Of a stretch of 46,637 bases of DNA, positions 1,347 to 43,610 are shown piece by piece. The notes under the pieces are model-generated. The model was not told the origin of the DNA and ran no database searches. It worked only from the letters and a program-made list of their open reading frames with translations. Position numbers and translations under genes: made by a program. This DNA comes from Oligoflexia bacterium (lineage in GTDB: Bacteria > Bdellovibrionota > UBA1018): positions 1 through 46,637 of the forward strand of contig CAIRTR010000155.1 in the NCBI GenBank assembly GCA_903881565.1. The letters run 5' to 3'. Positions within the stretch are counted from its first letter, which is position 1. Every line of letters begins with the position of its first letter.

Positions 1347-2906
1347 ATGAGCTTTCAATTGATTTTATCAGTGGCAGCATCAATCGCTGCCACTTTTTTT
1401 TTCAGCCCTACCTTCGTTTCGCTCGCCCAGCGGTGGCGGGAACCTTATTCCTCTTATGATCATGCGATATTGGTCCCATTCATTTGCCTATGGATGACCT
1501 ACCGCGAATTCAAAAAGAGCGCTGAAACTCCCATATCAATCCCTGTTTCGACTAAGGTCTTTATCTTTGGCCTCCTGGGACTGGCCTCATCCCTGCTGCT
1601 TTCAGTGGTAAGCAGTGTGCAACAAATCAACTTCCTCCAGGCTTCGGCGCTGGTTTTTTGCATTTGGAGCTGTGTGCTTATCCTAGGTGGGACGTCCATT
1701 TGGAGTCGTTTTCGCTGGCCCCTGGGATTTCTGCTCATGCTCATCCCCGTACCAACGTTTTTTCTAGCCCAGATGACTTTTGGACTTCGTCAGACAAGTA
1801 CGCTCCTCGTAGCGGGCACGCTTCAAATCCTGAGCGCGGTTTTCAAATTCCCCTTTGAGCGCGTCGGAAACGAACTCTATTTTGCACACCATCAGGTCAC
1901 CATTGTCGATGCATGCAGCGGTTTGAACACCCTTTTTTCCGTGATCACAATGGGGCTGATTCTTGTTTACCTCGAAGACCTCCCAATCAAACGCTGGATC
2001 ATCGCAGCCTTACTCATACCCAGTGCCGTGATTGCCAATGTGATTCGAATCCTGAGTATTTGCGCCTTTGTTGCCTTAGGATACAGCGATTTTGCCTTCG
2101 GTGCTGGTCACGATGCGTTTGGCATTCTAGCCGTTATTTTGGCTTTGGCACTATTGGCTTTTGGATTACCCGGTTTTCGTAGCAGGGGCAGCGCGCGCAG
2201 CGATCTGAACACAAGCAAGCAAATGCTCAGCGAGACGGGCTCCCCCAAATCAATCCCACGCGTCCAAAGGCTTTTCGCGGTTTTTCTCCTATTTTCCCTC
2301 GCGTTTCCTGCAGGTCTTGCACTTCAACATCCTATCGCGGTGACGCCCCCATTAACGCCGACCCAACCCCCTGGCATTTCCTCTTCACCCGACTCACTCT
2401 GGAAATTTCGCGAATTCAAGATGGACGCGGCTGTTGTCGAAGTTCTTGGCGTTCCCGACGCCAGAATGTTCGAAGCGGTTCCCATTGAGCCCAAGAAGTT
2501 GCCCCTCTACTACTACTGGATCCACGCGGCCGACAGCCGCAAAATCGGGCATCCCCCTGAGCTCTGCTATCGCGGCGACGATTACGAAATCCTCGATCGC
2601 AAGCCCCTAGAACTTTTACTTGGAAATCAAACTCTTCCAGTCATGCAATTGCTTGTGGAACGCGAAAAGAAGCGTTTGTTGGTCCTGTATTGGTACCGGA
2701 TTGGGGATCAGAACACTTCAAATTATCTTACCCATCAGTGGCATTGGGTTTGGAGCCAGATCACGAGGATCGCGCGCTCAACGCCTCCAGAAGAAGGAAG
2801 CCTCTACCGGATCTCAACGGAGCTTGACCCTAGCCTGCCCGAAGAAAAGCGCATTGAAGACGCGACGACGCGAATGAGTGCCTTTATTCAGACGATCCTG
2901 AAGTAG
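1347..2906 (+). CDS. Exosortase with C-terminal EpsI domain
   Basis: Multi-TM; VDACSGLNTLFS (catalytic Cys) and NVIRI plus GHDAFG (Arg/His) exosortase motifs; C-terminal HPPELCYRGDDYEI typical of EpsI/DUF3485. Confidence 0.92.
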   Translation: MSFQLILSVAASIAATFFFSPTFVSLAQRWREPYSSYDHAILVPFICLWMTYREFKKSAETPISIPVSTKVFIFGLLGLASSLLLSVVSSVQQINFLQASALVFCIWSCVLILGGTSIWSRFRWPLGFLLMLIPVPTFFLAQMTFGLRQTSTLLVAGTLQILSAVFKFPFERVGNELYFAHHQVTIVDACSGLNTLFSVITMGLILVYLEDLPIKRWIIAALLIPSAVIANVIRILSICAFVALGYSDFAFGAGHDAFGILAVILALALLAFGLPGFRSRGSARSDLNTSKQMLSETGSPKSIPRVQRLFAVFLLFSLAFPAGLALQHPIAVTPPLTPTQPPGISSSPDSLWKFREFKMDAAVVEVLGVPDARMFEAVPIEPKKLPLYYYWIHAADSRKIGHPPELCYRGDDYEILDRKPLELLLGNQTLPVMQLLVEREKKRLLVLYWYRIGDQNTSNYLTHQWHWVWSQITRIARSTPPEEGSLYRISTELDPSLPEEKRIEDATTRMSAFIQTILK

Positions 2907-3557: not shown

Positions 3558-5216
3558 CTAAAAGAACGATCGTGGAATTTCCAAATTAAGAGCCTCCACA
3601 TAGCCCTCTTTCCAGCAGAGACGATTGATCTTTCCAATCACCGAAGCCAACGCACTCTGTGCATTCACCACTTCGGACTCCACTCGAAGGACGCCCTCAA
3701 GGGCGGAGCGGACCGCCAGGATCGAAGTGTATCCCCCTTGATAAAGACTCTCGACTTGTTCCAAATTCTTATGGCGATTGGCGAGTGAAAGCTCCAGAAT
3801 ACGATTTTGATCCAACAGCTGATTATGCAAAGAAGTAAGCGAAATCACCTGCTCCTCAACCTTATTTTCCATATTCTTGCGCATCAACTGAACTTCTCGG
3901 AGCGCGGACTGCGCTATTTTGATTTTATGAATAGTCCCCTCATTGAAGCCAATCCATTCAGAAGGGTTGATAAAAGAAAACGCTTCCCCAAGCTTATGAA
4001 GCTCCGCCGCCTTTTCTAAAAACATGACTTGCCTGATCTCGAGCGAGCCACTTAGCGCTTCGGCCATAATGTCCGTCGGATTCAGCGGCCCACGAGTCGC
4101 AATCGGAATCAGCTCCGGTGCCACCAGAGTTTTAATTCCGGTGCGCGGTGACAACCCTACACCCCTCGAAAGAATCGCAACCTGACTCACCAAACCTTGC
4201 TCCATTTGAGAAATGTCCGCCTGATTCTTATAGATCAGATCCTCCAGCTCCATGAGGTCACTTTCAGGCGCATATCCGAGACCCACCCGCAAAGAAACCA
4301 TTTCACGGCTGGAATCCAGGATCGTTCGCGCATTTTGATAGCGCACGAGCAACTGCTGATCCCGAACGATCGCATGAACCATATCCTCGACAAGATTCAT
4401 TTGATTGGCGACCAAAGCCTTATACGACATGACCTCGCCTTCGTAGACGGCAGCTTCGCGCTTGAAATCAAACCAGTTGCTCGGAAAAATAAAAGGCACC
4501 AGCGAACCGATCATGGACGCGGCACTCAGTGGATAATTAACCAAGGAGATGATGCCACCCAAACTCATCGAAGGAAAAAGACGGGAGCGCACGACTTTTA
4601 CTTCCTGATGTGCCTGAAACAGTTTCTCGGCCGCAATCCGCGTATCATAACTCGTTGTTAGAACTCTTTTCCAAAGATCGGAGAGAGCAAAAGCGCCGTC
4701 TTTTATATCAGAACTTACGGATTCAGACGCCTTCAGCGGGTCGGATCCCACGCGATTCAGATAGAGCAATACGCGAAAACCGCCAGTTTCATCGGTCGAA
4801 AACAAGCTGAACACTTCTGTTTTCAAGCAAACTGTGGTGAATTTTGAATCCGCACAAACCCCGCGATCCTCAAGTTCGATCTCACTGCTCCCCGCGAGCA
4901 TGGAACTGCTGAGCAACAGCTTCGAACCCTTTTTCTTAAGCGTAATCAAGCCTAGTTCCCGCTGTGTCACACTATCTTGCAAGGCCAGTTTCGCCTCGCC
5001 CTTTTTTATCTGCTCAGGATCCATCTTCATGACGACACGATAGGACTGCACCACTCCATTCTCAATTCGACTATAATCGCCCTCATATTGGCCATCCAGG
5101 GTCGCCACTCGGTTATCGCATCCCATCAGACCCAAAGTGAGTCCGGCCACCGCGATGGCCGCCCCTAATCTGATCGAGAGATATGTTTTATTGAGACTCA
5201 TATTTTTCTCCCTCAC
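3558..5216 (-). CDS. TolC-like outer-membrane protein with extra N-terminal lipoprotein domain
   Basis: Lipobox-like LGLMGC; long helical region with TolC-type features from about residue 165; upstream domain LDGQYEGDYSRIENG. Confidence 0.75.
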   Translation of the reverse strand: MREKNMSLNKTYLSIRLGAAIAVAGLTLGLMGCDNRVATLDGQYEGDYSRIENGVVQSYRVVMKMDPEQIKKGEAKLALQDSVTQRELGLITLKKKGSKLLLSSSMLAGSSEIELEDRGVCADSKFTTVCLKTEVFSLFSTDETGGFRVLLYLNRVGSDPLKASESVSSDIKDGAFALSDLWKRVLTTSYDTRIAAEKLFQAHQEVKVVRSRLFPSMSLGGIISLVNYPLSAASMIGSLVPFIFPSNWFDFKREAAVYEGEVMSYKALVANQMNLVEDMVHAIVRDQQLLVRYQNARTILDSSREMVSLRVGLGYAPESDLMELEDLIYKNQADISQMEQGLVSQVAILSRGVGLSPRTGIKTLVAPELIPIATRGPLNPTDIMAEALSGSLEIRQVMFLEKAAELHKLGEAFSFINPSEWIGFNEGTIHKIKIAQSALREVQLMRKNMENKVEEQVISLTSLHNQLLDQNRILELSLANRHKNLEQVESLYQGGYTSILAVRSALEGVLRVESEVVNAQSALASVIGKINRLCWKEGYVEALNLEIPRSFF

Positions 5217-6241
5217 AACAACATCAGCGTCACTGCGGAAATCGTAATCATTGAAAGCGAAATGACATAGGTCAAAAACCGATCCACAAACGAAGGCGAG
5301 TTATCTAGCGCGCGAACCACCACCACATCCCCCGCCTTAAGTTCACCCATGAGGCGATCGGAGATCAGGTTAACGGTTTGGCGCTGATTCGTGGCACGAT
5401 GAATGATTTCCACGCGTGAAAAATCCGCATTAGAGGTAGGCCCGCCAGAGCGCCCAATATAAGTGAGCAAGTCCCCATTGGGCAAAATAGGCAGATCCTT
5501 AGCTTCGCGTACTTCACCCATCACAGAGATCGTGTGCCAGTTCTTCTTGATGTTGGCATCAGGAGGCGCGGTCATTTGGAAATAGATTTTTTCGCCGCCG
5601 CGCCAGAGCAGATCAGGCTCCGTGTCATATTGAGAGAAATATTCTGCCAGTTGAAACCAGACGGATTCTGCAGCGCCGCCTTCACTTGGCGCTCGTTCAA
5701 TTCGGAGATATTCGGGGCGCTGCCCCGCACTCCCCGGTGCGCCCGCCTGCTCATTCACAAAGCCTCCAGCTTTTGCGACAATCTCTTCAAGGGACATATC
5801 GAGGCGAACGAGATATCGGCCCGGATTCTTCACTTCACCACGAGCTTCTACCCAGACATTTCGTTCCTTGACTTCGACTTTAACGAGAGGGTCCCCTTTG
5901 ACATAATCTTGATACGCTTTTTGAATACTTTCCTTGAGTTCCGCAATCGTGAGCCCACCGGCTTTTACGGTCACTTTATAGGGCATCTGAACTTTTCCAT
6001 CAAAATCCAGCTTATATTCGCCTGATATTTTTGAATCGCCAGCATGGTCCACTGAAATCGTATTCCCGGGAACCACTCGATCATTTTGCTGGAGGGTCTT
6101 GCGCATGCGCTCATAACCCTCGTTCGAACGACGCACTTCGAGTTGACTGACCGGCGCAGAAGCACAGCCCAGCGCTCCCAGGCATCCTAATAATCCAAGC
6201 ATTAATCCCAATTTTGATTTCACAAATGCTCCTCTACTCAT
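5213..6241 (-). CDS. Polysaccharide export protein (Wza/BexD family, SLBB domain)
   Basis: Lipobox LGALGCAS; ISVDHAGDSKISGEYKLDFDGKVQMP, VWVEARGEVKNPGRYLV, VSLS C-terminal TM. Confidence 0.85.
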   Translation of the reverse strand: MSRGAFVKSKLGLMLGLLGCLGALGCASAPVSQLEVRRSNEGYERMRKTLQQNDRVVPGNTISVDHAGDSKISGEYKLDFDGKVQMPYKVTVKAGGLTIAELKESIQKAYQDYVKGDPLVKVEVKERNVWVEARGEVKNPGRYLVRLDMSLEEIVAKAGGFVNEQAGAPGSAGQRPEYLRIERAPSEGGAAESVWFQLAEYFSQYDTEPDLLWRGGEKIYFQMTAPPDANIKKNWHTISVMGEVREAKDLPILPNGDLLTYIGRSGGPTSNADFSRVEIIHRATNQRQTVNLISDRLMGELKAGDVVVVRALDNSPSFVDRFLTYVISLSMITISAVTLMLL

Positions 6242-12042: not shown

Positions 12043-14391
12043 TCATCGAGGAGCCGGACCATAGAGCATTCCCCCACCAAAGAACAAATAAAAAATTGAG
12101 CCCGCACGGTTTGGATCAAATACCGTCCCATCTAGGTTAGACAAAAGTGGAATGTTCTTATTTTTTTTCCAGCTCGCTCCCCCATCCAGCGAATACCATG
12201 CGCCTCCCTCACCCCAGGAGCCATCCACCTTATACAGCCCCGAAGCAAACACGTGTCCGGAGTCTTTCGGATCTAATGTAAGCGCCGTGGGATGAGTCAT
12301 TTGTCTTTGCCTCGTCCAAGTCACGCCTCTGTCTTCGGATTTCCAAACACCAGAGGCAAGCCAAGCGCCTTGACTCTCAATATCCGTTAGCCACAAGGTT
12401 TCCCGTTTGGGATCACGGAAATCTACCGCAAATGCCGAGGGAAACCACCAAAATTTAACATCGGCGCTAACCCCTTCAGGTCGTTTGACGGTTTGCCTGA
12501 GCAGCTGCCATTTCAGCGAACCGTTTGCGACATCGAGAAAATAAATGCCGGTCGTGCCAGGATTTGAGAACTTCGGGGCATCTCCGGTGAGTAATAAATA
12601 GGCGTTGCCGTTGGCCGGATCGATCTCAAGCTGAGGGACCATCTGGATGCCGGCAGGCAATCCTTCATTGAGGGGCGCCCAAGTTTTTCCGCCGTCTTTC
12701 GAGCGCGCCACACCCCGTCCGCGAGTGCCCCCGTAGAGATTTTTGTTAAACGAATCGTAGGCAACCGATAAAAATTCGATATTCCATTCTCCCGAACTCG
12801 GAGTGAGGCGACTCCAAGAACGACCCCGATCATTTGAGCGAAAAACTCCTCCTTCAGTCCCCTCAACAAAACTCCCGTTTCCCAGGGGAAAATCGTGCAA
12901 ACTTCCCGAAGCGGCAAAAACAACCGCTTCTTCTAAAGGATCAAAGGCATAATCATAATTGGTATTGTACTTCGCCTGCGTGATTCTCCACGTCTCGCCG
13001 CCATCTTCGGTAACCAGTCCGCCGATATCGGCGAGCGATGCGTAGCCCGTTTTCGAAAACTTAGGATGAAACTTTAACCGATGGACTGACGTCACTTCAA
13101 TTCCCGTGGAGCGCCACTTCTTTCCTTTTTCTCGTGCGCCCTGATCCGCAAATTGGGTAAACGGGGCTTTCCAGGTTGCGCCATAGTCTGAAGAAGTGTG
13201 TAAGAAAAAATGCCCCGTTCCGCCAACTTCAGAAGAATCCCGCGGATTGATGGCAAAACTCCAAAAGGCTCCATCATACCACCCCACATCTAAACCCACG
13301 GCGCTATACTCGAGCTTCTCTTTTGGCCAAGGCGCGTAGGGTCTCTTGTCCCAGTCATTGACCAAGAATCGAAGCGCCCAACTTTCTCCCGCATCGCGCG
13401 AAACCCAGACTTTGCTGCCCGTCTGGCGAATCCAGTTTCCCCCGGTTATATAGAGGGTTTTGGGATCATTTTCCGCCATCCGAATAAAGCGCCCAGCCTC
13501 TTTTTTCGTCTGAACAAACGAAGGCGTCTCTGTATCGGGCTTGGATCGGCTGACCCACACGAAACCACATTCAGCTTGGGTGGCGGCATCTCCCGATCCC
13601 GCGCAAGCTTTTTTCCCCTGACCATCCATCCAGGCCAGCGTTCTCAACTGGGCATCCGCGCCACCCGCAAATCCCCGAATGACATTCGCTCCGGGTTCAG
13701 TGCCAGAGGGTTTGAACCAAGGCTGAAAAGTTTTTCCGTCGTCGTTGGATAAAAAAATCGCCGTCTCCGTGGCGTGAAAAACCTTGGGGTGGGTGCTTGG
13801 GAGCGCGCTTGACAGCGCGCCAGCCTGAATACCAGACTGAATAAATGTCCCGCGACTCTCACCCGTTTGCACTTTTTTCCAACTCGATCCCAAATCCTCT
13901 GAACGATAAAGGGCCTGATTTGTAGCACAAAAGATCAGTTTTGATTTCTCATGATCTCCTAACCAGTATTTGATCCACTCGTCTTTTTCTAAAGGAACAG
14001 CAATCGACGTCCAGAGCGCGCCCTGATCCAAGCTCCGCTTGGGATTTTTTCCGCCTGAAGCAAAAAAAACGGTACGACCATCTGAACTCAGTCCTACCCC
14101 CGAACTTCGCTCCAGATTATAATCGAATACGACCTGATCATGCGCAATCGCTCGCCATGACTTCCCTTCGTCCTGAGAACGAAACAAAGTGCCCATGTCC
14201 GTTCCAACAAAGCGAAGACGCGAACCTGCTTTTCCATAAGGACTGAGGGTGAAACCCGAAAGCGCGCCCCCGCCTCCCACACCCCGGGGCTGATAGTCTT
14301 GCATTTTGGAATCTGAAAATGCGACGGGCATCGCCCAAAGAGCGCCCAGCAAACCCCACACGACTCCTCTGAGAACCCTTACTTGAAACAT
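12043..14391 (-). CDS. Secreted BNR/sortilin-like repeat protein (GH74/VPS10-like beta-propeller)
   Basis: Many S.D.G.SW/SKDGGKTW/SEDRGVTW Asp-box repeats, signal peptide. Confidence 0.85.
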   Translation of the reverse strand: MFQVRVLRGVVWGLLGALWAMPVAFSDSKMQDYQPRGVGGGGALSGFTLSPYGKAGSRLRFVGTDMGTLFRSQDEGKSWRAIAHDQVVFDYNLERSSGVGLSSDGRTVFFASGGKNPKRSLDQGALWTSIAVPLEKDEWIKYWLGDHEKSKLIFCATNQALYRSEDLGSSWKKVQTGESRGTFIQSGIQAGALSSALPSTHPKVFHATETAIFLSNDDGKTFQPWFKPSGTEPGANVIRGFAGGADAQLRTLAWMDGQGKKACAGSGDAATQAECGFVWVSRSKPDTETPSFVQTKKEAGRFIRMAENDPKTLYITGGNWIRQTGSKVWVSRDAGESWALRFLVNDWDKRPYAPWPKEKLEYSAVGLDVGWYDGAFWSFAINPRDSSEVGGTGHFFLHTSSDYGATWKAPFTQFADQGAREKGKKWRSTGIEVTSVHRLKFHPKFSKTGYASLADIGGLVTEDGGETWRITQAKYNTNYDYAFDPLEEAVVFAASGSLHDFPLGNGSFVEGTEGGVFRSNDRGRSWSRLTPSSGEWNIEFLSVAYDSFNKNLYGGTRGRGVARSKDGGKTWAPLNEGLPAGIQMVPQLEIDPANGNAYLLLTGDAPKFSNPGTTGIYFLDVANGSLKWQLLRQTVKRPEGVSADVKFWWFPSAFAVDFRDPKRETLWLTDIESQGAWLASGVWKSEDRGVTWTRQRQMTHPTALTLDPKDSGHVFASGLYKVDGSWGEGGAWYSLDGGASWKKNKNIPLLSNLDGTVFDPNRAGSIFYLFFGGGMLYGPAPR

Positions 14392-14595: not shown

Positions 14596-15573
14596 ATGAC
14601 TCATTTTCACAAACCCGTATTGATCACTGGCGGCGCAGGTTTTATCGGAACCTATCTCGCTCGCCGTTTACGTGCGGAAAATATCGAAGTTCGAAGCCTG
14701 GATATTCGCGATCCACGTACGCCAGTTTCGGGTGTGAACTACCTCAATGGCGATGTGCGCAACCCTCAGGACCTCATGCAGGCAGCGACAGGCGTTCAGG
14801 CGATCTATCATTTGGCGGCAGTCGTAAGTGTGGTGGAGTGCCAGGAAAAGCCCACCGAAAGTTATAGCACAAATTTCATGGGAACCATTCAAGTCCTCGA
14901 AGCGGCGCGAGCCGAGGGAAAAGCTGCTGGCAAAATTCCTCGGATTATTTTTGCAAGCAGCGCTGCGCTTTACGGCCACAATGGAAAAGAGAACATTCCG
15001 ATTAAAGAAACCGACGTTTCTGAAACCCCCCTCTCCTACTATGCCCATCAAAAATTGTCTTCGGAGCAGGCAATCCGACTCTATCACGAGCATGCCGGAG
15101 TGCCTGCCGTGGTCTTCCGATTCTTCAATGTCTTTGGAATCGGCCAGGATCCTCACTCTCCGTATTCGGGTGTAATCAGTATCTTTTCAAGACTGGCCAA
15201 GGAAAACGCGCCGCTTAAGCTCAACGGCGGAGGCACCCAAACTCGCGATTTTGTTTCGGTAAAAGATATTGCGGAGGCCTGTTTCCTGGCTCTTCCTTCA
15301 AATTCTGCAAATTCTGCAAATTCCGCAAATTCTGCTTCGACTGAACTCACGCGAGGCGAAGCCATTAATCTTGGAACGGGCACTTTAATTTCGATTCGCA
15401 AACTTGCTGAATGGATTGTCAAACTTTCTGACGGAAAAAGTGAGATCATCACGGGCCCGGCTCGCGAAGGGGACGTCCTTCATTCATTGGCGGATCATTC
15501 TCGCGCCAAAGCCCTGCTCAATTGGAAACCTCAAGTTTCCCTTGAAGCTGGATTAGCGGAGCTCCTTTCATGA
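14596..15573 (+). CDS. NAD-dependent epimerase/dehydratase (extended SDR)
   Basis: VLITGGAGFIGTYLARRL, YYAHQKLSSEQ, TRDFVSVKDIAEA. Confidence 0.93.
   Translation: MTHFHKPVLITGGAGFIGTYLARRLRAENIEVRSLDIRDPRTPVSGVNYLNGDVRNPQDLMQAATGVQAIYHLAAVVSVVECQEKPTESYSTNFMGTIQVLEAARAEGKAAGKIPRIIFASSAALYGHNGKENIPIKETDVSETPLSYYAHQKLSSEQAIRLYHEHAGVPAVVFRFFNVFGIGQDPHSPYSGVISIFSRLAKENAPLKLNGGGTQTRDFVSVKDIAEACFLALPSNSANSANSANSASTELTRGEAINLGTGTLISIRKLAEWIVKLSDGKSEIITGPAREGDVLHSLADHSRAKALLNWKPQVSLEAGLAELLS
15301..15335 (+). repeat. In-frame 9-bp tandem repeat (AATTCTGCA x ~4) encoding (NSA)n
   Basis: aattctgca aattctgca aattccgca aattctgc. Confidence 0.95.
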
Positions 15574-16769
15574 TGAGTTTCATCTCACTTACTTTTATTG
15601 CAGTTGCCTGCATCGGCTGTCTTGGCACCCTCGGGATGACCTGCGTTTTTCCGCTCTTGGGCGGAATGCTCCATTTCCTGAGTCTTCGATTATCCGGTGG
15701 CTCCACGAAAGACACGACCCGCACTCCGGTGAAACGAATTGCCATTCTCATCCCGGCTCATAACGAAGCCCATACCCTAGCTTTAACTCTGACTTCTGTG
15801 CAAAAATCAATTTCCCATCTTCAGGCAAAACACCCCAAAATCCAGGTCGTAGTTCGCATTGGCGCCGATGGCTGCACCGATACGAGTGAAAAAATCGCAC
15901 ATTCATTTGGGGTCGAGGTCCTTCAGTTTCCTGGCCAAGGTAAATGGAAAACCGTCCACGCGCTCGTGAAGGCATCTCAGGATTCTGATTGGGTCGTCAT
16001 GGCCGATAGCGGAATCTTATGGCCAGATAATTTCCTCCTCGAATGTCTCCCTCTGTGTGAACAAAGTGACGTCATGGGTGTCGCGCCCACTTATCAAAAC
16101 CCCTCCCCTGGGATCGTCGAGCGGATGATCTGGAATCTTGAGCGGGTTTTGAAAACACTCGAAAATATTTCAGGCGGCCCTGTCAGTGTGCACGGCCCTA
16201 CGGTGCTTTATCGACAGGCCATTTTGCAAACCGCTTTGGATCAACTCACTCGTAAATCTGAAGCTCAGCAGGCCGGCTGGATTAATGATGATGTTGTGAT
16301 TTCGCTGTTTTTGCGACTCACTCAACCGCAACAGCGAATTGTTTACCTCTCCAGTGTCGCGGCTTTTGACAGCGTGGAGTCCCAGATTGATGTAAAAACC
16401 CAGAAACCTCTGCGCGAGCTCAATCGCCGCAAAAGGATCGTATTGGGGAACCTGCAATGGATGCGCATCATTCTGCGCCCCTACGCGAGACAGAATCTCA
16501 GCGCCAGCCTCATAGCCTGCCGCCGTATTTTTCGAATGCTTTGGGCTTACTGGATGCTGGCACTAGCCGTTGGCGGAATTTCACTGATGTTCCTATTACA
16601 GGGCTTAAATTTGTCCCTGGCCCTGTCGCTATTTATTATCCTTCTTGCATTCGCAATCGTTGTATCCCCCACCCTTCGCCCCCTTCAAATGCTTTTAGAT
16701 GCTGGGTGGGTTTCGCTTATGGCTCCCTATTATTGGATGTCAAAACAGTCACTATCGAGGTGGAAATGA
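15570..16769 (+). CDS. Glycosyltransferase family 2 (membrane-associated)
   Basis: IAILIPAHNEAHTLALTL, VVRIGADGCTDTSEKIA, WINDDVVIS; C-terminal TMs. Confidence 0.88.
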   Translation: MMSFISLTFIAVACIGCLGTLGMTCVFPLLGGMLHFLSLRLSGGSTKDTTRTPVKRIAILIPAHNEAHTLALTLTSVQKSISHLQAKHPKIQVVVRIGADGCTDTSEKIAHSFGVEVLQFPGQGKWKTVHALVKASQDSDWVVMADSGILWPDNFLLECLPLCEQSDVMGVAPTYQNPSPGIVERMIWNLERVLKTLENISGGPVSVHGPTVLYRQAILQTALDQLTRKSEAQQAGWINDDVVISLFLRLTQPQQRIVYLSSVAAFDSVESQIDVKTQKPLRELNRRKRIVLGNLQWMRIILRPYARQNLSASLIACRRIFRMLWAYWMLALAVGGISLMFLLQGLNLSLALSLFIILLAFAIVVSPTLRPLQMLLDAGWVSLMAPYYWMSKQSLSRWK

Positions 16770-18163
16770 AAACGATAAAAGAACGAATCCTGTCATTTGA
16801 TTTAACCGGGCTCTGGTCGCTGCTATGGCTTGCCTGTACGGCCTACTTCTGGTTTTTTCTCAATCTTCACAACCCGTCTTTTTCGGCCTGGAGCCTGCCT
16901 CTCAATGTGATCATCGCCGCAGGCATTGCGCTGCTGGCGAGTTATGTGCTGTGGGCCGTTCGGTTCTTCAGCATTATCCGAATCGCGCCACTTAAAAGTG
17001 ATTTTTTCCTCTTCTTGTTTGCGATGGGTGTGGCATCGGGCGTGCTGGCGCTTTTGCTTTTGCTAGGGTTCCATGCTCCCAAAGCCCTCCTTGTTCAAAT
17101 GGCCGTATCACTTCCGATCGTCTCGGCTGCCTATTTCTCGGGCTATGTCTTTTTTACTCAGTGGCTTGGTCGTAACCGAAAACGGAGAATCACGCTGCGA
17201 CTTCGCCCCGAAGAAACCCGTCAATACCTTGAAGCGCTTGAAGAGGCCGGTTTGATTGACCAGATTGAGCTCGTTCCTGCCTCAGAAGTTCTTGCCGAAT
17301 TTGCCGAAGGCAATCGACCTAAGATCGATCTCATCGTGTTTTCTCGAGGCGGCTCTCGCGACATGCGCACCGATCGTTTTCTCTTGCGCGCGCATCTGGC
17401 CGGCATTCGAATCAAAGACCGCAGAAGTACGTTAGCTTCACTCACCCGCAAAGTTGATCTTGAGGATCTGGATGTGTGGAGCTTCGTCTCGTCAGCGAGT
17501 TCGCAAAGTGCCTGGCAACGATTCACTCGGATGCTTCGTGAATCTGTTGAACCCGTGCAGGCGTTAGTGTTGATCGTCGCGTTTCTGCCCTTGCTTTTGA
17601 TTCTTGCAGTTTGCATCAAATACACTTCGCCAGGCCCCGTCTTCTACTCTCAGCGCCGCACCGGCTATTACGGCAAGGTTTTTAAACTCTACAAACTCAG
17701 AAGTATGCGAACGGATTCTGAGTCCAGCGGTTACCAGTGGGCCTCCAAAGGGGACTCTCGAATCACCCCGTTTGGTAAGTTTCTGCGAAAATCCCGACTC
17801 GACGAACTCCCACAACTTTGGAACGTCGTCCGGGGGGATATGAGTTTCATTGGTCCCAGGCCGGAGCGGCCCGAGATTTACCGCGACTTAAAAGAAACGA
17901 TCCCCCTGTTTTCTCTTCGTACGGACGTCCGCCCGGGAATTACGGGATGGGCTCAAATTTGTTCTGGCTACGCGGCCTCTGTCGATGAAACAAGGCTAAA
18001 GCTTGAGCATGACTTGTATTATATTCAAAACATGTCGGTACGGCTGGATATCGTGATTTTTCTCCTGACCATCAAAGTGATGCTCTTTGGGAATGAATTT
18101 ATTGACAGACCTAAGGTTAAGTTTCATCGTACAGCAAGCATTCTTTCTGGCATGTTTCCCTGA
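16766..18163 (+). CDS. Undecaprenyl-phosphate sugar phosphotransferase (WbaP/WcaJ-type)
   Basis: SPGPVFYSQRRTGYYGKVFKLYKLRSMRTD, KFLRKSRLDELPQLWNVVRGDMSFIGPRPERPE; ATGA overlap start. The track start at 16457 runs into the previous gene. Confidence 0.93.
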   Translation: MKTIKERILSFDLTGLWSLLWLACTAYFWFFLNLHNPSFSAWSLPLNVIIAAGIALLASYVLWAVRFFSIIRIAPLKSDFFLFLFAMGVASGVLALLLLLGFHAPKALLVQMAVSLPIVSAAYFSGYVFFTQWLGRNRKRRITLRLRPEETRQYLEALEEAGLIDQIELVPASEVLAEFAEGNRPKIDLIVFSRGGSRDMRTDRFLLRAHLAGIRIKDRRSTLASLTRKVDLEDLDVWSFVSSASSQSAWQRFTRMLRESVEPVQALVLIVAFLPLLLILAVCIKYTSPGPVFYSQRRTGYYGKVFKLYKLRSMRTDSESSGYQWASKGDSRITPFGKFLRKSRLDELPQLWNVVRGDMSFIGPRPERPEIYRDLKETIPLFSLRTDVRPGITGWAQICSGYAASVDETRLKLEHDLYYIQNMSVRLDIVIFLLTIKVMLFGNEFIDRPKVKFHRTASILSGMFP

Positions 18164-18187: not shown

Positions 18188-20872
18188 GTGAAAAAACCGA
18201 CCTCTTCATCGCACTGGCCGATCTCCCTGCTTTCAAGCGTCTCTGCGCTCGTGAATATGGCGGTGCCCCTGATCATGGTGCGCATTCTTCCGCCTGAGCA
18301 GATGGGAATTTTCAAGATCTTCTTTCTTTATGTTCTCATGATGCCAGCCTTCTCCATGACCAATGGTCTAACCAACGGCCTTGGCTATTGGGCGGGACAA
18401 GGGGACCGAGGACTGCGAGCGATCCGCATGTCCAACTCGCTGATTAACCTGATCGCCGTCGCGCTGACCTTTCTGATGCTCCTCGCCTCACCGTTAGTGG
18501 CAGCGATTTTTCATTGGCCATTCATGACGGCATGCCTTTTTGCTTTTTCGATTTGGGGCGCGGTTTGTCTGACCTTTCTCGAAGAGTCTTCGATCGTCAC
18601 CGGAAAAATCTGGTTTGGGGCAATTTACCTTTCCTCGACCGAAATCCTGCGATCAGCCCTCCTCGTGGTGACTGCCCTTGTCACCCGAAGTTTGGACATG
18701 ATACTGTTGGTTGCATCACTTAGTGCCGTCGCCAAAGTCACCGCAAGTCTCATTCTCGCCAAAAGGCGTGGCCTGATCGACTTCACATTCGGTGGCTTTT
18801 TTGAAAAAGATGAGAGTAAGAAAGTCTTGTTTCAAGATATCTGGAAATATGCATTCCCGGTGTCTGTCGCTGGAGTTTTCGGAGTATTTGTAACGTCCAG
18901 TGACCAGATCATCCTTTCGCATGTGCTGCAACCCGCACAGTTTGCCCTTTACGCGATAGGCTGCTTGAGCCTTCCTCCCATTTTCATCCTTGAACAGTCC
19001 GTGACTCGCGTGATGATCCCTCAATTGTCTGCCGCTTTTGCAGAGCGAAACACACTTCGAGCCGCCCACTCTTATCGTGGCACTGTCGATCAACTGGCTT
19101 GGCTTATTATTCCAGCAGTGACTGGCCTTATTGTCTTTGCAGAACCGATTATCCAGCTTCTCTTTACGGCCCAATATCTCGAATCTGCGCAGTACCTGCC
19201 TTGGTTTGCGCTGGGTTATCTTCTTTTGATTTTTCCAACCGATGCCGTTCCGCGCGCTCGCGGCGAAGGCCAGTGGATCCTTCGAGCGTCTCTTATCTTT
19301 TCCCCACTTTCTTTGATTCTTTGCTTTGCCCTTGGCTCGACATGGGGAGCCTTCGGCGCATTGGCCGCCATTCTCATTGCAAAATTGGCACTCAAGATTT
19401 ATGCCGTTTACTATATCAGAACTTCTACGAAGTGGAGCTGGAGTTCTTTTATTCCGCAGAGATCTATCGCCATTTATCTTATAACCAGCGTTCTCTTGGC
19501 ACTGCTTATTGAGTTCGCCCAAAAGGAGTTCCATCTTTTTGCGGGTAGCTTAAACTTTTTTGTTTATGGCTTTGCTTTCATTTTGATGTATTTTCCATTG
19601 GCTTTCTTTTTTTCGATCTATGGAGTCCCCAGAGAGAGAGACGAGGGAGTGCAAGGGAACGTGCTGCTCTTTACGCAGCATCTTGGAATTGGTGGACTTG
19701 AGCGCCTTGTCTTGAATTTAGCTAAAGATCTGCGCAGTCAAGGCAAATGGAAACCGTTTGTTTTTTCGCACGATTCAGCGGAAAATGCGCAGAATTACTC
19801 TTCGCGCTCGTTGGTCGGTGAGTTTCTCAAACATGATATCCCCGTCGATGCTCTTCAGAAGGGCGCGGGTTTTTCGTTGCACACTGTCTACCGATTGCTC
19901 CGCTGCATTCACGTTCACGAAATCGACATCATTCATTCACACGATATGGGCACCCTGATCTATGCCGTTTTTGCCAAGCTTCTGACCCTCGGCAGAGTTC
20001 GGTTAGTTCATACCCAGCACAGCTTCGTCCATCTCGCTCGCCATAAGCGATATGCGCTCTATGAAAAATTCTTTACGCGTTTCGTGGACACATTGACAGT
20101 GGTTAACGAAAGTCTGGTTTCATCCTATGAGGCCTTGGGAGTTTCTCGAAACAAGATCCAGGTTATCAGCAATGGCGTAACTTTCCCAAAACAATCGCTC
20201 ATCACTTTTGAAGAGAAGATTCAGCTTCGTCGAGAGCTTCTGGCCGAACTCAGGGCCAGCCAAAAACTTGCTTCGCTGCGTGCGCCCTTGCCCGTACTTG
20301 TGGTCAAAGATCATTGGCTCCTTTATATGGCCAGGTTACATTCAGTCAAAGGCCAGCGAAAAGCAGCTGAGCTCTGGAGCGCCCTGAATCCCGCCATTCG
20401 GAGAACATCGTTGCTATGGATCGTGGGCCCCGAGGCCCAAAGCGGCGAGCAAGACGCAGTTTTGAAAGCCTTCGAAGCCGTCCCTAATCGTGATCGAGTT
20501 ATCTTTATTGATGGCACGCAAAATCCGCAGCAGTGGCTCAACGCTTCGGACCTCTCGATCTCCTGTTCCCAGGTCGAAGGCATGCCCATGGGCCCGATCG
20601 AAGCACTGGGATCAGGTCTCCCGGTCGTGCTTTCGGAGATTGAGGGTCATGAGTTTCTGAGAAACCAAGCTAAACTTTTCCCTCTTTCGGACCTCCAAAA
20701 AGGGGCTGCCGCCATTGAATCCACCCTCAGTGTGCCAGACTACCGCTCTCCTCTCTATTATTATCACCTTTGGCGAGCGAGCCGTGGGATAAGACAGGAG
20801 TATTCACTCGCTGCCATGACTGAAAAATATGCCCAAGCTTACAGTACCCATGCCACAGGGAAAAGCACATGA
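18188..20872 (+). CDS. Fusion: Wzx-like oligosaccharide flippase plus GT4 glycosyltransferase
   Basis: N-terminal ~480 aa multi-TM MATE/Wzx-like (ILPPEQMGIFKIFF); C-terminal LGIGGLERLVLNLAKDL ... HSHDMGTLIYAVFAKL ... MARLHSVKGQ ... VEGMPMGPIEALGSGLPVVLS. Confidence 0.87.
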   Translation: MKKPTSSSHWPISLLSSVSALVNMAVPLIMVRILPPEQMGIFKIFFLYVLMMPAFSMTNGLTNGLGYWAGQGDRGLRAIRMSNSLINLIAVALTFLMLLASPLVAAIFHWPFMTACLFAFSIWGAVCLTFLEESSIVTGKIWFGAIYLSSTEILRSALLVVTALVTRSLDMILLVASLSAVAKVTASLILAKRRGLIDFTFGGFFEKDESKKVLFQDIWKYAFPVSVAGVFGVFVTSSDQIILSHVLQPAQFALYAIGCLSLPPIFILEQSVTRVMIPQLSAAFAERNTLRAAHSYRGTVDQLAWLIIPAVTGLIVFAEPIIQLLFTAQYLESAQYLPWFALGYLLLIFPTDAVPRARGEGQWILRASLIFSPLSLILCFALGSTWGAFGALAAILIAKLALKIYAVYYIRTSTKWSWSSFIPQRSIAIYLITSVLLALLIEFAQKEFHLFAGSLNFFVYGFAFILMYFPLAFFFSIYGVPRERDEGVQGNVLLFTQHLGIGGLERLVLNLAKDLRSQGKWKPFVFSHDSAENAQNYSSRSLVGEFLKHDIPVDALQKGAGFSLHTVYRLLRCIHVHEIDIIHSHDMGTLIYAVFAKLLTLGRVRLVHTQHSFVHLARHKRYALYEKFFTRFVDTLTVVNESLVSSYEALGVSRNKIQVISNGVTFPKQSLITFEEKIQLRRELLAELRASQKLASLRAPLPVLVVKDHWLLYMARLHSVKGQRKAAELWSALNPAIRRTSLLWIVGPEAQSGEQDAVLKAFEAVPNRDRVIFIDGTQNPQQWLNASDLSISCSQVEGMPMGPIEALGSGLPVVLSEIEGHEFLRNQAKLFPLSDLQKGAAAIESTLSVPDYRSPLYYYHLWRASRGIRQEYSLAAMTEKYAQAYSTHATGKST

Positions 20873-21570
20873 GCGGCAGCCCCTCCTCCTTCTTGGGCAA
20901 AGCCATGCGAATTTTGCAAAGCAGGCCCACCCGGTTTTTTCTTACAGTGCGGGGCTGGTTTCTCTTCAAAGCAACCCGGTGGCTGTCTCGGATATTCCCG
21001 CTCCCGGGTGTGGTTTTGGGCAAGAACGTACGACTTCAGCGGTTGCGCTGCTTGATGGCCGAAGCCCCGGAGGCTTCAATCCACATTCAAGATCATACGA
21101 TTATCTATGAAAATGCCAGGATCGAAGCCTATGAAAAGGGCATGATTCAAATCGGCGATTGCTCAATTCTGGGAGATATTCGAATCCAGGCGCGGGAACG
21201 AATCCAAATTGGCAAAAGGTTTCTCTCAAGCTGGAACGTCTTTATTTCAGACTTTGAGCCTCACCCTATCGAGGCCGACCTTCGGGGCTTTCAAGTGGAG
21301 ATGATGGTCGAACAATTTAGACCCCGATTTGCGGGTGCCCATTCAGACAACGCGCTTTCCACACGCTGGACCTCCAAAGCCTGGGCCTTCCCGAAAGAGG
21401 CTATCGAGATCGGGGACGACGTGTGGGTCGGCGCCAACGCCACCATTCTAAAGGGTGCAAAAATTGGAAAAGGCTGTATCGTTGCAACCGGCTCCGTTGT
21501 CATTCGAGGCACTTACCCCGAGCATTCAGTGCTTGCGGGCAATCCCGCGAAAGTGGTAAAAACGATATGA
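20869..21570 (+). CDS. Hexapeptide-repeat acyltransferase
   Basis: IGDDVWVGANATILKGAKIGKGCIVATGSVVIRGTYPEHSVLAGNPAKVVK. Confidence 0.88.
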   Translation: MSGSPSSFLGKAMRILQSRPTRFFLTVRGWFLFKATRWLSRIFPLPGVVLGKNVRLQRLRCLMAEAPEASIHIQDHTIIYENARIEAYEKGMIQIGDCSILGDIRIQARERIQIGKRFLSSWNVFISDFEPHPIEADLRGFQVEMMVEQFRPRFAGAHSDNALSTRWTSKAWAFPKEAIEIGDDVWVGANATILKGAKIGKGCIVATGSVVIRGTYPEHSVLAGNPAKVVKTI

Positions 21571-22156
21571 CCGTGGAAACACCATTTCCTTTTCTCAATT
21601 ACCTTCGCTTGGGTGAGATCAAACGGCTGGTTCATCGCTTCAACGACCAGGTCAATCAACACCAAGCAAAAGCGGTCTCCATCACCAGCCTTCAACCCGG
21701 CGAGGGAAGAACCTTTCTTGTGGCGGTACTGGCCATCGGACAAGCCCTCTTTCTAAAGAAAAAGGTTTTGGTTATTGATGCCAGCAGTCAGCCGGAAAAA
21801 GGCCTCTGTACCTTAATCGAATTTTTGAGGATGAGCTTTTAGGAAAATGTGTCGACCTCATCTCGCCAAAAAACAAAACGGCATCCTCAGAAGATACTGC
21901 CGACTTCGAACTCCGGGAGCTGATCGAGAGTTATAAAAGAAAATATGATCTCATTCTCCTTGATACCACCGCCATCGAATCTTCAAACACGACCTCGATG
22001 GATCCCATGATCGTCTCTAAAGCTGCCGAGCACACCCTGATGATCCTCTCGAATCCCAGCATTTCGTCGGGAAACTTCAAGCATGTGAAAAAGGATTTTG
22101 AAAGTTGGGGCATTCACCTGCTTGGAACGGTCTATAACTTCGGGAGCTTGAAATGA
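21567..22156 (+). pseudogene. CpsD/CapB-family (BY-kinase-like) ATPase, reading frame broken by a -1 frameshift near 21785-21800
   Basis: Frame 1: MTVETPFPFLNYLRLGE..SLQPGEGRTF..KKKVLVIDASSQPEK then stops at 21842; other frame continues RPLYLNRIFEDELLGKCVDLIS..YDLILLDTTAIES..GTVYNFGSLK to TGA 22154-22156. Confidence 0.7.
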
Positions 22157-23292
22157 GAAACCAGCCCCATTCACAACCTGACGACACGATCGCTTTTCAT
22201 GAAGTAGCAGCCATAATCAAGCGCCACTTTTTGCGCTCAATCATCATCATGATCTTCGGCACCGCGGTAGGGATTGGCCTGACCTCGGTTGTACCCAAGC
22301 GCTTTGCCTCAAAAGCGGTTCTCAACATTCAGGCCGCCTATTTTCAAATCCCGCTTGTCGGAGATCTCGTGTCTAACCCCAGCGACTCCCTTGAGTATAA
22401 GGCCCAGCGAGAGTCTCTGCTCCGCTTTGCGCTCAGCGATGGTTTCTTAGAAGACGTCGGCACCAAGTTTGGGCTTTTCAGAACTGACAAAGAGGATCGC
22501 CGTCATCCTGCGGAAAGAGAGAGTCTTCTTCAGGGAATTGAATACTTCAGTCTGGGTGGAAACAGTTATCAGATCTCCGCAGTCGGACCTTCTGCCGAGA
22601 TCGCGTATGAACTCACGCGCGCCGTGCTTAACCAAATGATCGCAACACTTGCGGCGGAGCGACTGGGCAAACTCACGCGCGCGCGCACCGCAATTTTATC
22701 CAATCTTGAGACCTTGAAAACTGAGATCGCACACGCCGGACCCTCTCAACCCGCATCTGTGGATGAAGCTTCCGAGAGCCTGGAAGAAGCGCAAGCCAGG
22801 CTTCATTCGCTGGAACAGCGTTTTACGCCCCAACATCCCTCTGTGGTCGAACAACGCCATAAGGTCGAGTTACTCAGATCAAGAGTATCCCGAGGCAGTA
22901 AATCTGGCGTTTCGGACACTCCCCTTTCGGCATCCCGCCGCACGATACAGGATCTCCACGACGATCTGGCCAAGAAGTTCAACTACCTGAATATCGTCAT
23001 CGACATGGAAAAAACCACGGATAACTACGCGTATCTTTCGGTTATCGAGCATCCGAGTATCCCGTCGGGGCCCTATGCCCCCAAAAAACGAGTATTCGCT
23101 TTGGGCGGCTTGATTCTCGGCCTCGTGCTCTCTTTGTTATGGGCCGTGGTTAAAGAACTACGGCGCGGCACCTTCGTTCAACCCATCCACGCTTCTGAAG
23201 TTCTGGACGCCCCGTTCCTGGGCAGTCTGCCTCGCTGGGAAGGAGAGTCTTCCCAAAAACTGCTAACTCCCCCGAAACAACCTTCCTCATGA
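22153..23292 (+). CDS. Chain-length determinant / Wzz-GumC family protein
   Basis: N- and C-terminal TMs flanking coiled-coil; HPSIPSGPYAPKKRVFALGGLILGLVLSLLWAV. Confidence 0.87.
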   Translation: MRNQPHSQPDDTIAFHEVAAIIKRHFLRSIIIMIFGTAVGIGLTSVVPKRFASKAVLNIQAAYFQIPLVGDLVSNPSDSLEYKAQRESLLRFALSDGFLEDVGTKFGLFRTDKEDRRHPAERESLLQGIEYFSLGGNSYQISAVGPSAEIAYELTRAVLNQMIATLAAERLGKLTRARTAILSNLETLKTEIAHAGPSQPASVDEASESLEEAQARLHSLEQRFTPQHPSVVEQRHKVELLRSRVSRGSKSGVSDTPLSASRRTIQDLHDDLAKKFNYLNIVIDMEKTTDNYAYLSVIEHPSIPSGPYAPKKRVFALGGLILGLVLSLLWAVVKELRRGTFVQPIHASEVLDAPFLGSLPRWEGESSQKLLTPPKQPSS

Positions 23293-24698
23293 CGGCACTC
23301 ACCGCAGCGATACCCTGGATATTGGGTTTATTTACCCTAGGAATCTGCGGCGCCATCTTTGGAAAATTTTGGAGTTCGTGGAGGACCTTCTCCTTTCCCG
23401 TTTCCCTGACACTGCTTCTTATGTTTCTAGGACTCAGTGGCGTTATGGTGATTGGCGTTGGCGTTACTCAAGCCTTGTTGGGTGTCGGGTTGGCCGCCGG
23501 AATTATTTTGAGCTTCTTGCAGCCGGTCGCCGCGGTTTGCATTCTCGTCTCGCAACTCTTGATTCGACCCTGGGAAGTGATCGCCGATGCCCCCTCGCTT
23601 CTGGGGACTTTGCCTCGCCTTTTAGCCGCGATTACCTTCACGTCATGGCTCCTTCACCGTTTACTTCGAAAACGACTCAGCTTTGTTTGGAATTCGAGTC
23701 TTACCGTTTTCACCTTTCTTTTTGGATGGCTCCTCCTATCCGCTCTTTTGGCCCCCTATGCTGAATACAATCTTGAGGACATCTTTCGCATTTTCCTGCC
23801 CATCTTTGGTTTTTGCATTCTCCTCGTCAATTGTGTTGAAACAAAACGGGACTTTGCACTTGTCACCCAGTCACTCACTCTTGCACTGGCCGCCGTGATT
23901 GCGACTGCACTTGTGTACACCCTTGCTGATCCCGAGTTCCTGACAGGCGGTCTGCGACTGCAAAGTGTGGGGCAAAACGGCAACACCAATGATCTTGCCG
24001 CGCTCACGGTGCTTGCGATTCCCTTCTCGTATTTTTCTTGGATGGAAAAGCGGAAACTCAAGAAATCCGGATCCTGGGTTGATGTCTTGTGCCTGGTGAT
24101 CTTCTTTACCGCTCTGATTTTGGCAAAGTCTCGGGCTGCCATGCTCGCCCTGGGTGGCGCCTTCGGTTTTCATCTTTTTCTCACGACCCGTTCTAAAGCC
24201 AAGCTTTTGTTGAAATTGAGTTTATTGGCGCCCGTGGCCTTCGGACTCTTTGTCGTCGCCTTGCATCGAGATGCGGCGGATCTTGAGGGCTCCTCTGATT
24301 CGCGATTTAACTATATTTTGGCAGGATTCAAAATGCTTCGGGCCCACCCGTTTTTCGGCGTAGGCGTTGGCAACTATCCCCGATTTTATGATCAGTTTAC
24401 CTTAGCGTACATCGAAACCGGAGAGCGCACGGCTCATTCGACCTGGATGCTTTTGCTTTCAGAAACAGGTCTGATGGGTCTGTTGCTCTTCGGCATTCTA
24501 TTCTACACTTCAGTCAAACGGGCATGGAGCATTCGAGCGGTTTACCCGGAACTCTTAGTCTCCTTGTTCGGATATTCCATCACGATGACTTTTCTTTCCC
24601 ACGCCTACTGCCTTTATCCCTATTTGCTATTTTTTCTCATTCTCAGCGCCAGCCGGCTGCCTTTGCCCCAGTCAGGAGATCCCCTTCATGGAACTTAA
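23289..24698 (+). CDS. O-antigen ligase/polymerase family (Wzy/WaaL-like)
   Basis: Multi-TM; ILAKSRAAMLALGGAFGF, HPFFGVGVGNYPRFY, AHSTWMLLLSETGLMGLLLF. Confidence 0.87.
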   Translation: MTALTAAIPWILGLFTLGICGAIFGKFWSSWRTFSFPVSLTLLLMFLGLSGVMVIGVGVTQALLGVGLAAGIILSFLQPVAAVCILVSQLLIRPWEVIADAPSLLGTLPRLLAAITFTSWLLHRLLRKRLSFVWNSSLTVFTFLFGWLLLSALLAPYAEYNLEDIFRIFLPIFGFCILLVNCVETKRDFALVTQSLTLALAAVIATALVYTLADPEFLTGGLRLQSVGQNGNTNDLAALTVLAIPFSYFSWMEKRKLKKSGSWVDVLCLVIFFTALILAKSRAAMLALGGAFGFHLFLTTRSKAKLLLKLSLLAPVAFGLFVVALHRDAADLEGSSDSRFNYILAGFKMLRAHPFFGVGVGNYPRFYDQFTLAYIETGERTAHSTWMLLLSETGLMGLLLFGILFYTSVKRAWSIRAVYPELLVSLFGYSITMTFLSHAYCLYPYLLFFLILSASRLPLPQSGDPLHGT

Positions 24699-42587: not shown

Positions 42588-43610
42588 ATGACAAATAAAA
42601 ATCTGCCGATCCTAGAATTTGTGCTCAAAAACTATAAGAATTTCAACTCCCGCGCGACCAGAGACGCGACCCTCTCCTACTGGAGCCACATCGAAGGTGG
42701 CGGAAAAATGTTCTGGGCTGTCGCAGGCGCCATGTCCTCGGCCCAACTCGGAATTACACTTGCCCCTGCCATTCGCGCAGGCCTGATTCATGGCCTATCG
42801 GTCACAGGTGCGAACCTTGAAGAATCCCTCTTCAGACTCGTGGCTCATCATAGCTACAAGGATTTTCCTGAGTATCGTTACTTCACCAAAGACGACGACA
42901 CCAAAATTCTTGAGCAGCGTATGCGTCGCGTGACGGATACGAGTATCCCTGAGGACGAGGCGTTTCGCGCGGTCGAAAAATACATCGTGCCGATGTGGAC
43001 GGATGCGACGAAGAACAAAACGCGCCGGTTTTGGCATGAATACTTTTACGAACTCATTCAAAAGATTGAGCCCAAACTTTATGAAGGGAGTGCTGAGGAA
43101 TGCTGGTTACTCGCCGCCGCCCGCGCCAAGTTACCGATGGTCGTGCCGGGATGTGAAGATTCCACTTTTGGAAACATTTTTGCTTCACACGTGAAGACCG
43201 ATGAGTGCAGCGCTTTGATCGTGAAGTCTGGCATTGAATACATGGGCCAGCTTTATGACGATTATAAAGAGCTCTCGACGGGTAAGGGTGTCGGCTTCTT
43301 CCAAATCGGCGGCGGAATCGCAGGCGACTTCCCGATCTGCGTCGTTCCTTCGATCAAGTATGATTTGGCTCAGCCGGTGAAGCCGTGGGCGTACTTCTGC
43401 CAGATTTCGGATTCAACGACTTCGTACGGATCCTACTCAGGCGCGACGCCGAACGAGAAGATCACGTGGGACAAGCTCACGCGCGACACTCCGATGTTCG
43501 TCATTGAATCCGATGCGACGATTGTGGTTCCGCTGATGCTCAACGCACTCTTGGAAGCCAAGCAGGATCCTAAAGCCGCGAATGAGTTGATTAAGAAGTA
43601 TACGGCTTGA
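42588..43610 (+). CDS. Deoxyhypusine synthase-like protein
   Basis: HIEGGGKMFWAVAGAMSSAQLG, GLSVTGANLEESLF, GKGVGFFQIGGGIAGDFPI, YGSYSGATPNEKITWDKL (candidate catalytic Lys), ESDATIVVPLMLNALL. Confidence 0.85.
   Translation: MTNKNLPILEFVLKNYKNFNSRATRDATLSYWSHIEGGGKMFWAVAGAMSSAQLGITLAPAIRAGLIHGLSVTGANLEESLFRLVAHHSYKDFPEYRYFTKDDDTKILEQRMRRVTDTSIPEDEAFRAVEKYIVPMWTDATKNKTRRFWHEYFYELIQKIEPKLYEGSAEECWLLAAARAKLPMVVPGCEDSTFGNIFASHVKTDECSALIVKSGIEYMGQLYDDYKELSTGKGVGFFQIGGGIAGDFPICVVPSIKYDLAQPVKPWAYFCQISDSTTSYGSYSGATPNEKITWDKLTRDTPMFVIESDATIVVPLMLNALLEAKQDPKAANELIKKYTA

Follow-up and report, generated by a model that had tools for sequence, protein, structure and literature searches.

The window, the whole 46,637-nucleotide stretch of the Oligoflexia bacterium contig CAIRTR010000155.1 that was analysed, carries a Wzx/Wzy-dependent exopolysaccharide locus, in which a polyprenyl phosphoglycosyltransferase (PGT), glycosyltransferases (GTs), a Wzx-like flippase, a Wzy-like protein, a polysaccharide co-polymerase (PCP), and a Wza-like exporter occur together (Table 1). 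Within this locus, one uninterrupted frame with a GTG start at 18188 and a TGA stop at 20870–20872 joins an MOP flippase to a GT4 glycosyltransferase in a single 894-aa protein. The upstream PGT probably has its true start downstream of 16457. A second hexapeptide acetyltransferase, an acyltransferase, and a polysaccharide deacetylase are also encoded in the window.

Several further features of the window were recorded. Of 58 genomes of the class, only the window genome and G024 encode an exosortase, in each case with the fusion on that same contig. The Sortilin/BNR-repeat protein has a counterpart of 58% identity at the corresponding position next to the locus in G024, and a 50% match in G061. 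The Wzc/tyrosine-kinase-like gene, located between the acetyltransferase and the PCP, shows an apparent frameshift near 21800, which may reflect either genuine damage to the gene or a fault of assembly; the gene is intact in G024 and G036. A bacterial member of the deoxyhypusine synthase family is encoded farther downstream.

Table 1. Coordinates of the fused gene, its parts, and neighbouring features in the window
Feature	Position	Strand	Evidence and remarks
Exosortase (EpsH) fused to EpsI/DUF3485	1347–2906	+	PF09721 1.2e-40, PF11984 8.9e-17
Wza-like exporter (Poly_export + SLBB)	5213–6241	-	Domain match
Sortilin/BNR-repeat protein	12043–14391	-	
NAD-dependent sugar epimerase/dehydratase	14596–15573	+	PF01370; synteny
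GT2 glycosyltransferase, conserved neighbour	15570–16769	+	PF00535; synteny
Polyprenyl phosphoglycosyltransferase (Bac_transf), likely initiating enzyme	16457–18163	+	PF02397 2.5e-62; TIGR03025 287 bits vs cut-off 295.6
Fused MOP flippase-GT4 gene	18188–20872	+	894 aa, GTG start; single frame also in 8 other genomes/contigs
MOP (Wzx-like) flippase half, residues 1–478, 14 TM helices	18188–19621	+	PF13440, AlphaFold, Foldseek
Linker, residues 479–489 (GVPRERDEGVQ)	19622–19654	+	Low AlphaFold confidence at 479–488
GT4 (GT-B fold) glycosyltransferase half, residues 490–894	19655–20869	+	PF13439, PF13692, PF00534; Foldseek
EX7E motif of GT4 half, E797–E805 (EGMPMGPIE)	20576–20602	+	Invariant in 9/9 fused proteins
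Hexapeptide (WbbJ-like) O-acetyltransferase	20869–21570	+	ATGA overlap with fusion stop; adjoins fusion in nearly all relatives
Wzc/tyrosine-kinase-like gene	21567–22153	+	Apparent frameshift
Polysaccharide co-polymerase (Wzz/PCP-like)	22153–23292	+	TIGR03007 1.1e-13, below cut-off
Wzy/O-antigen-ligase-like protein	23289–24698	+	PF04932 2.3e-20
Deoxyhypusine synthase family protein	42588–43610	+	PF01916 2.6e-34

Domain architecture and junction

An earlier sequence-only reading of this DNA had described a flippase of ~480 aa and a complete GT4 of ~400 aa within one ORF, and both the architecture and the split are borne out, with the boundary at residues 478/490. Pfam assigns Polysacc_synt_3 (PF13440) to residues 29–334 (E 1.4e-10), Glyco_transf_4 to residues 501–664 (E 3.5e-23), and Glyco_trans_1_4 or Glycos_transf_1 to residues 707–847 (E 4.5e-14 and 6.9e-13, respectively). 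The AlphaFold model of the whole fused protein, built with six fused homologues, has a mean pLDDT of 79 and a pTM of 0.56, and the sole low-confidence break separating the two halves spans residues 479–488. The linker comprises ~11 residues in the window protein and 3–12 across the nine fused proteins defined below. The fusion also survives inspection of positions 19630–19660, near which, according to the sequence-only reading, a stop or frameshift would have refuted it: the frame there contains neither a stop nor a frameshift.

The flippase half

Modelled alone from a 19-sequence alignment, the flippase half adopts 14 helices (pLDDT 91.7, pTM 0.90), within the 12–14 helices in two lobes that define the MOP fold. 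Because phmmer searches with the fused protein and the flippase profile returned no solved relative by sequence, structure comparison was needed; at E 1e-7 to 1e-6, Foldseek aligned the half with MATE transporters and with MurJ (TM up to 0.74) and WzxE (TMt up to 0.72), the latter two being among its best solved matches. The half scores 41.3 bits against PF13440 (cut-off 23) and lies far below the MurJ equivalog TIGR01695 (26.1 bits vs cut-off 235.6). With the Wzx/MOP flippases (WzxE, MurJ; PF13440, PF01943, PF03023) it shares the 14-helix fold, the position in a Wzx/Wzy locus, and conserved charged residues inside the helical bundle; unlike the fused protein, known Wzx and MurJ carry no catalytic domain.

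Genome-wide, PF01943 has no match, PF13440 places the fused protein alone above its cut-off (genome 98.75% complete), and PF03023 adds a true MurJ on another contig (G000:C278, 344 bits), which leaves the fused protein as the single Wzx candidate detected. As the sole Wzx-type flippase detected besides MurJ, encoded in a full Wzx/Wzy locus, its flippase half is very probably functional; on sequence and fold it is assigned to the MOP superfamily as Wzx-like, with predicted transport of a lipid-linked oligosaccharide.

Positive charges number 19 in the would-be cytoplasmic loops of the flippase half and 3 in the others, which together with the 14 TM helices predicts that both termini are cytoplasmic. 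A cytoplasmic C-terminus would place the GT4 half on the correct side for a lipid-linked unit, and since this half begins almost directly after the last helix, it must sit at the membrane, close to the flippase.

The GT4 half

The C-terminal half combines a GT-B fold, GT4 Pfam domains, and an intact EX7E motif, which upholds the earlier description of a complete enzyme with a donor-region motif. Foldseek matches it to HepE with bound UDP and glucose (4xsu, TMt 0.80), to BshA, and to other GT4 enzymes. The nine fused proteins agree without exception at twelve GT4 signature residues, including G502, G503, H585, N662, R716, K721, and the motif glutamates E797 and E805. The likeness to the retaining GT4 enzymes HepE (4xsu), BshA (5d00), and TIGR03088 covers the GT-B fold, the EX7E motif, and a donor-site arginine and lysine, whereas those enzymes are standalone; against TIGR03088, the XrtA-system GT, the half scores 70.9 bits, below the cut-off of 409. 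By fold and motif this is a GT4 glycosyltransferase, with predicted catalytic activity.

Conservation of the fusion in Bdellovibrionota

The MOP-GT4 fusion is encoded in a single frame in at least eight other Bdellovibrionota genomes or contigs, at 32–57% identity. The fused relatives belong to Bdellovibrionales and Oligoflexia MAGs of this phylum and include G024 (57%), G036 (44%), G021 (39%), G053 (35%), and G026 (33%). G232 encodes the fusion as an 868-aa ORF in a genome consisting of one 3.35 Mb contig; two further examples lie on contigs L037 and L036, the ORF on L036 running off the contig end yet holding both halves. These eight and the window protein constitute the nine fused proteins compared throughout. 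In G049, the fusion is split across two contig ends. The relatives were recovered by alignment-based search, single-protein patterns having given no match against the genome contigs, and a tblastn search of plasmids gave no site that spans the two halves. The fused gene of G024 (L002, upstream of 4068, - strand) shows no ATG, GTG, or TTG between the in-frame upstream TGA and a conserved SHWP motif, which points to a non-standard start codon or to an error.

Other flippase-GT fusions in the phylum

A PF13440 scan of the phylum, followed by Pfam scans of long frames, revealed proteins with an N-terminal flippase joined to a GT2 enzyme in G226, G249, G250, G251, and G273. An open frame equal to these in length is present in G248, and the 998-aa protein of G187 (L098) matches GT2 only weakly (E 0.0014). 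The reverse layout, with the GT2 enzyme N-terminal to the flippase, occurs in two Silvanigrella-type MAGs (L043, L044), in which it is the gene next to one encoding a GT4 relative within a protein of ~930 aa; the flippase of this GT2-MOP fusion is a true relative of the window flippase (E 4e-24, 25%). All of these share with the window protein an MOP flippase joined to one glycosyltransferase, and differ from it in carrying GT2 instead of GT4, in the N-terminal enzyme of L043/L044, and in the MOP subfamily of the MOP-GT2 group.

By sequence, the MOP-GT4 fusion is real and conserved, and fusion of an MOP flippase to a GT is recurrent in Bdellovibrionota, in at least three layouts (MOP-GT4, MOP-GT2, and GT2-MOP). 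The earlier impression that this is not a common architecture thus holds in part: MOP-GT4 is patchy inside one phylum, whereas the MOP-GT2 and GT2-MOP fusions occur there too. No description of an MOP-GT fusion was found in the literature searched, the coverage of which was incomplete for subscription journals and domain-architecture resources.

Further details of these and of other composite proteins were recorded. The MOP-GT2 fusions on L094, L095, L096, L097, and L100 measure 768–839 aa and belong to another flippase subfamily and to other families of the phylum. The GT4 relatives at L043:8010–10793 and L044:7995–10808 bear a C-terminal extension of ~550 aa that matches no Pfam model. At L025:1811–4879, a Wzy_C protein is joined with a glycoside hydrolase domain of GH123-like type, another fusion of locus functions; at L028:4924–6624, the GH123-like gene is separate.

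Unfused relatives and origin

In many of the 369 genomes covered by a phylum-wide search, members of this flippase family and relatives of the GT4 are encoded by separate neighbouring genes. In G215 and G214, the flippase gene precedes the GT4 gene with overlapping ends: the overlap is 4 bp (ATGA) in G215, and in G214 the GT4 begins at a GTG within the end of the flippase gene. These pairs have the same flippase family and a GT4 of the same clade as the fusion, and differ in being two genes. Most examined loci of family f9 follow the order GT4a, flippase, GT4b; here the flippase family is again the same, but the order is reversed, the GT4 belongs to a more distant group, and the genes are separate. 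The clade of the fused GT4s also has standalone members, in G020 and an Elusimicrobia MAG; these are adjoined by the same acetyltransferase, with no flippase adjacent. Since close relatives retain adjacent, slightly overlapping flippase and GT4 genes, the origin of the fusion is visible: a neighbouring, co-translated pair would have been joined into one frame.

In the GT4 tree, the fused halves, the enzymes of G214, G215, and G234, and the solo enzymes form one well-supported group. The AU test rejects a single clade for the complete set of fused GT4 halves (p 0.0098), since the G232 half groups with the unfused G214, G215, and G234 (support 98/89); with G232 left out, such a clade is no longer rejected (p 0.2). 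For the flippase, a clade confined to the ten fused rows is rejected, probably because it shuts out contig-edge fragments, such as G034, which is close to the fused G026; once the fragments are added, the clade is not rejected (p 0.525). Two separate fusions would fit these trees, as would a single fusion with a later fission.

Discussion

We consider it fairly probable that the fused gene encodes a two-domain inner-membrane protein of the Wzx/Wzy pathway, in which the GT4 adds a sugar at the mouth of the flippase and the finished unit is handed over. The N-terminal MOP domain would flip an undecaprenyl-PP-linked repeat unit to the periplasm, and the C-terminal GT4, held by a tether of 3–12 residues where the last helix ends on the cytoplasmic side, would add a sugar, plausibly the last, to the same lipid-linked unit beside the cytoplasmic mouth. 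The likely benefit would be twofold: the enzyme could pass finished units to the flippase and could reach unfinished ones ahead of it. We infer the channelling, the substrate, the topology, and the last-sugar role of the GT4. By Pfam, the locus holds one PGT, one GT2, and one GT4, and is therefore compatible with GT4 as the last-sugar enzyme.

The flippase has been described as a checkpoint retaining incomplete units, with channelling suggested as a safeguard (PMC11759038), and certain Wzx proteins are reported to flip in response to terminal residues (PMC6436433); by analogy, channelling and a dependence of flipping on completion are plausible here and would fit this view. A Wzx, in turn, need not belong to a multi-protein complex to work (PMC6436433). 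Coupling gains weight from the homologous flippase fused to GT2 at its opposite end, beside a related GT4 (E 4e-24). Counting against it, most relatives in the phylum keep separate genes, so fusion is not required; the two close GT4 relatives in G020 and the Elusimicrobia MAG indicate that the GT4 can work alone; and the whole-model pTM leaves the relative orientation of flippase and GT4 unfixed.

The fusion might instead be a mere tether, ensuring a 1:1 amount and membrane anchoring of a soluble GT4, without channelling or control of flipping. We regard this as rather unlikely, although the overlapping genes of the relatives already favour co-expression, a small indel suffices to fuse such genes, and standalone GT4 relatives exist. 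Against it, the flippase fusions of the phylum take GTs of two families and at either end, arguably more than would be expected of joining any neighbour.

It is improbable that the product acts as two proteins, with GT4 made also from an internal start or released by linker cleavage. The window protein does have in-frame GTG codons, at residues 488 and 492, and ATG codons occur at 474 in G036 and 484 in G026; however, the junction lacks any in-frame start in G232 and L037, the remaining fused genes have no consistent ribosome-binding site, and the linker is very short. Still less probable is a transport-dead flippase half serving only as a membrane anchor for GT4, which is opposed by its standing as the only Wzx-type flippase found in a nearly complete genome with a full Wzx/Wzy locus, and by the conservation of the same residues in fused and unfused flippases. 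Joining of two genes by a sequencing or assembly error, for which a T7 run at 19607–19613, the nearest suspect feature to the junction, and the apparent frameshift 1 kb downstream in the kinase-like gene might speak, is rejected because the same fusion is kept in a single frame in eight other genomes or contigs, one of them a single-contig genome.

Direct handover from GT to flippase and the avoidance of flipping unfinished units have been discussed but not settled (PMC11759038, PMC6436433). More tentatively, and with some doubt, Bdellovibrionota may on several occasions have turned their flippases into catalytic checkpoints, by making the unit-finishing enzyme one molecule with the flippase, in which completion and flipping would both take place. 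The three or more layouts would then be independent answers to lipid carrier being lost when unfinished units are flipped. A natural covalent fusion, with separate-gene relatives and GT2 joins at the other end, makes coupling testable by cutting or keeping the tether, and the fused protein may serve glycoengineering as a ready-made module.
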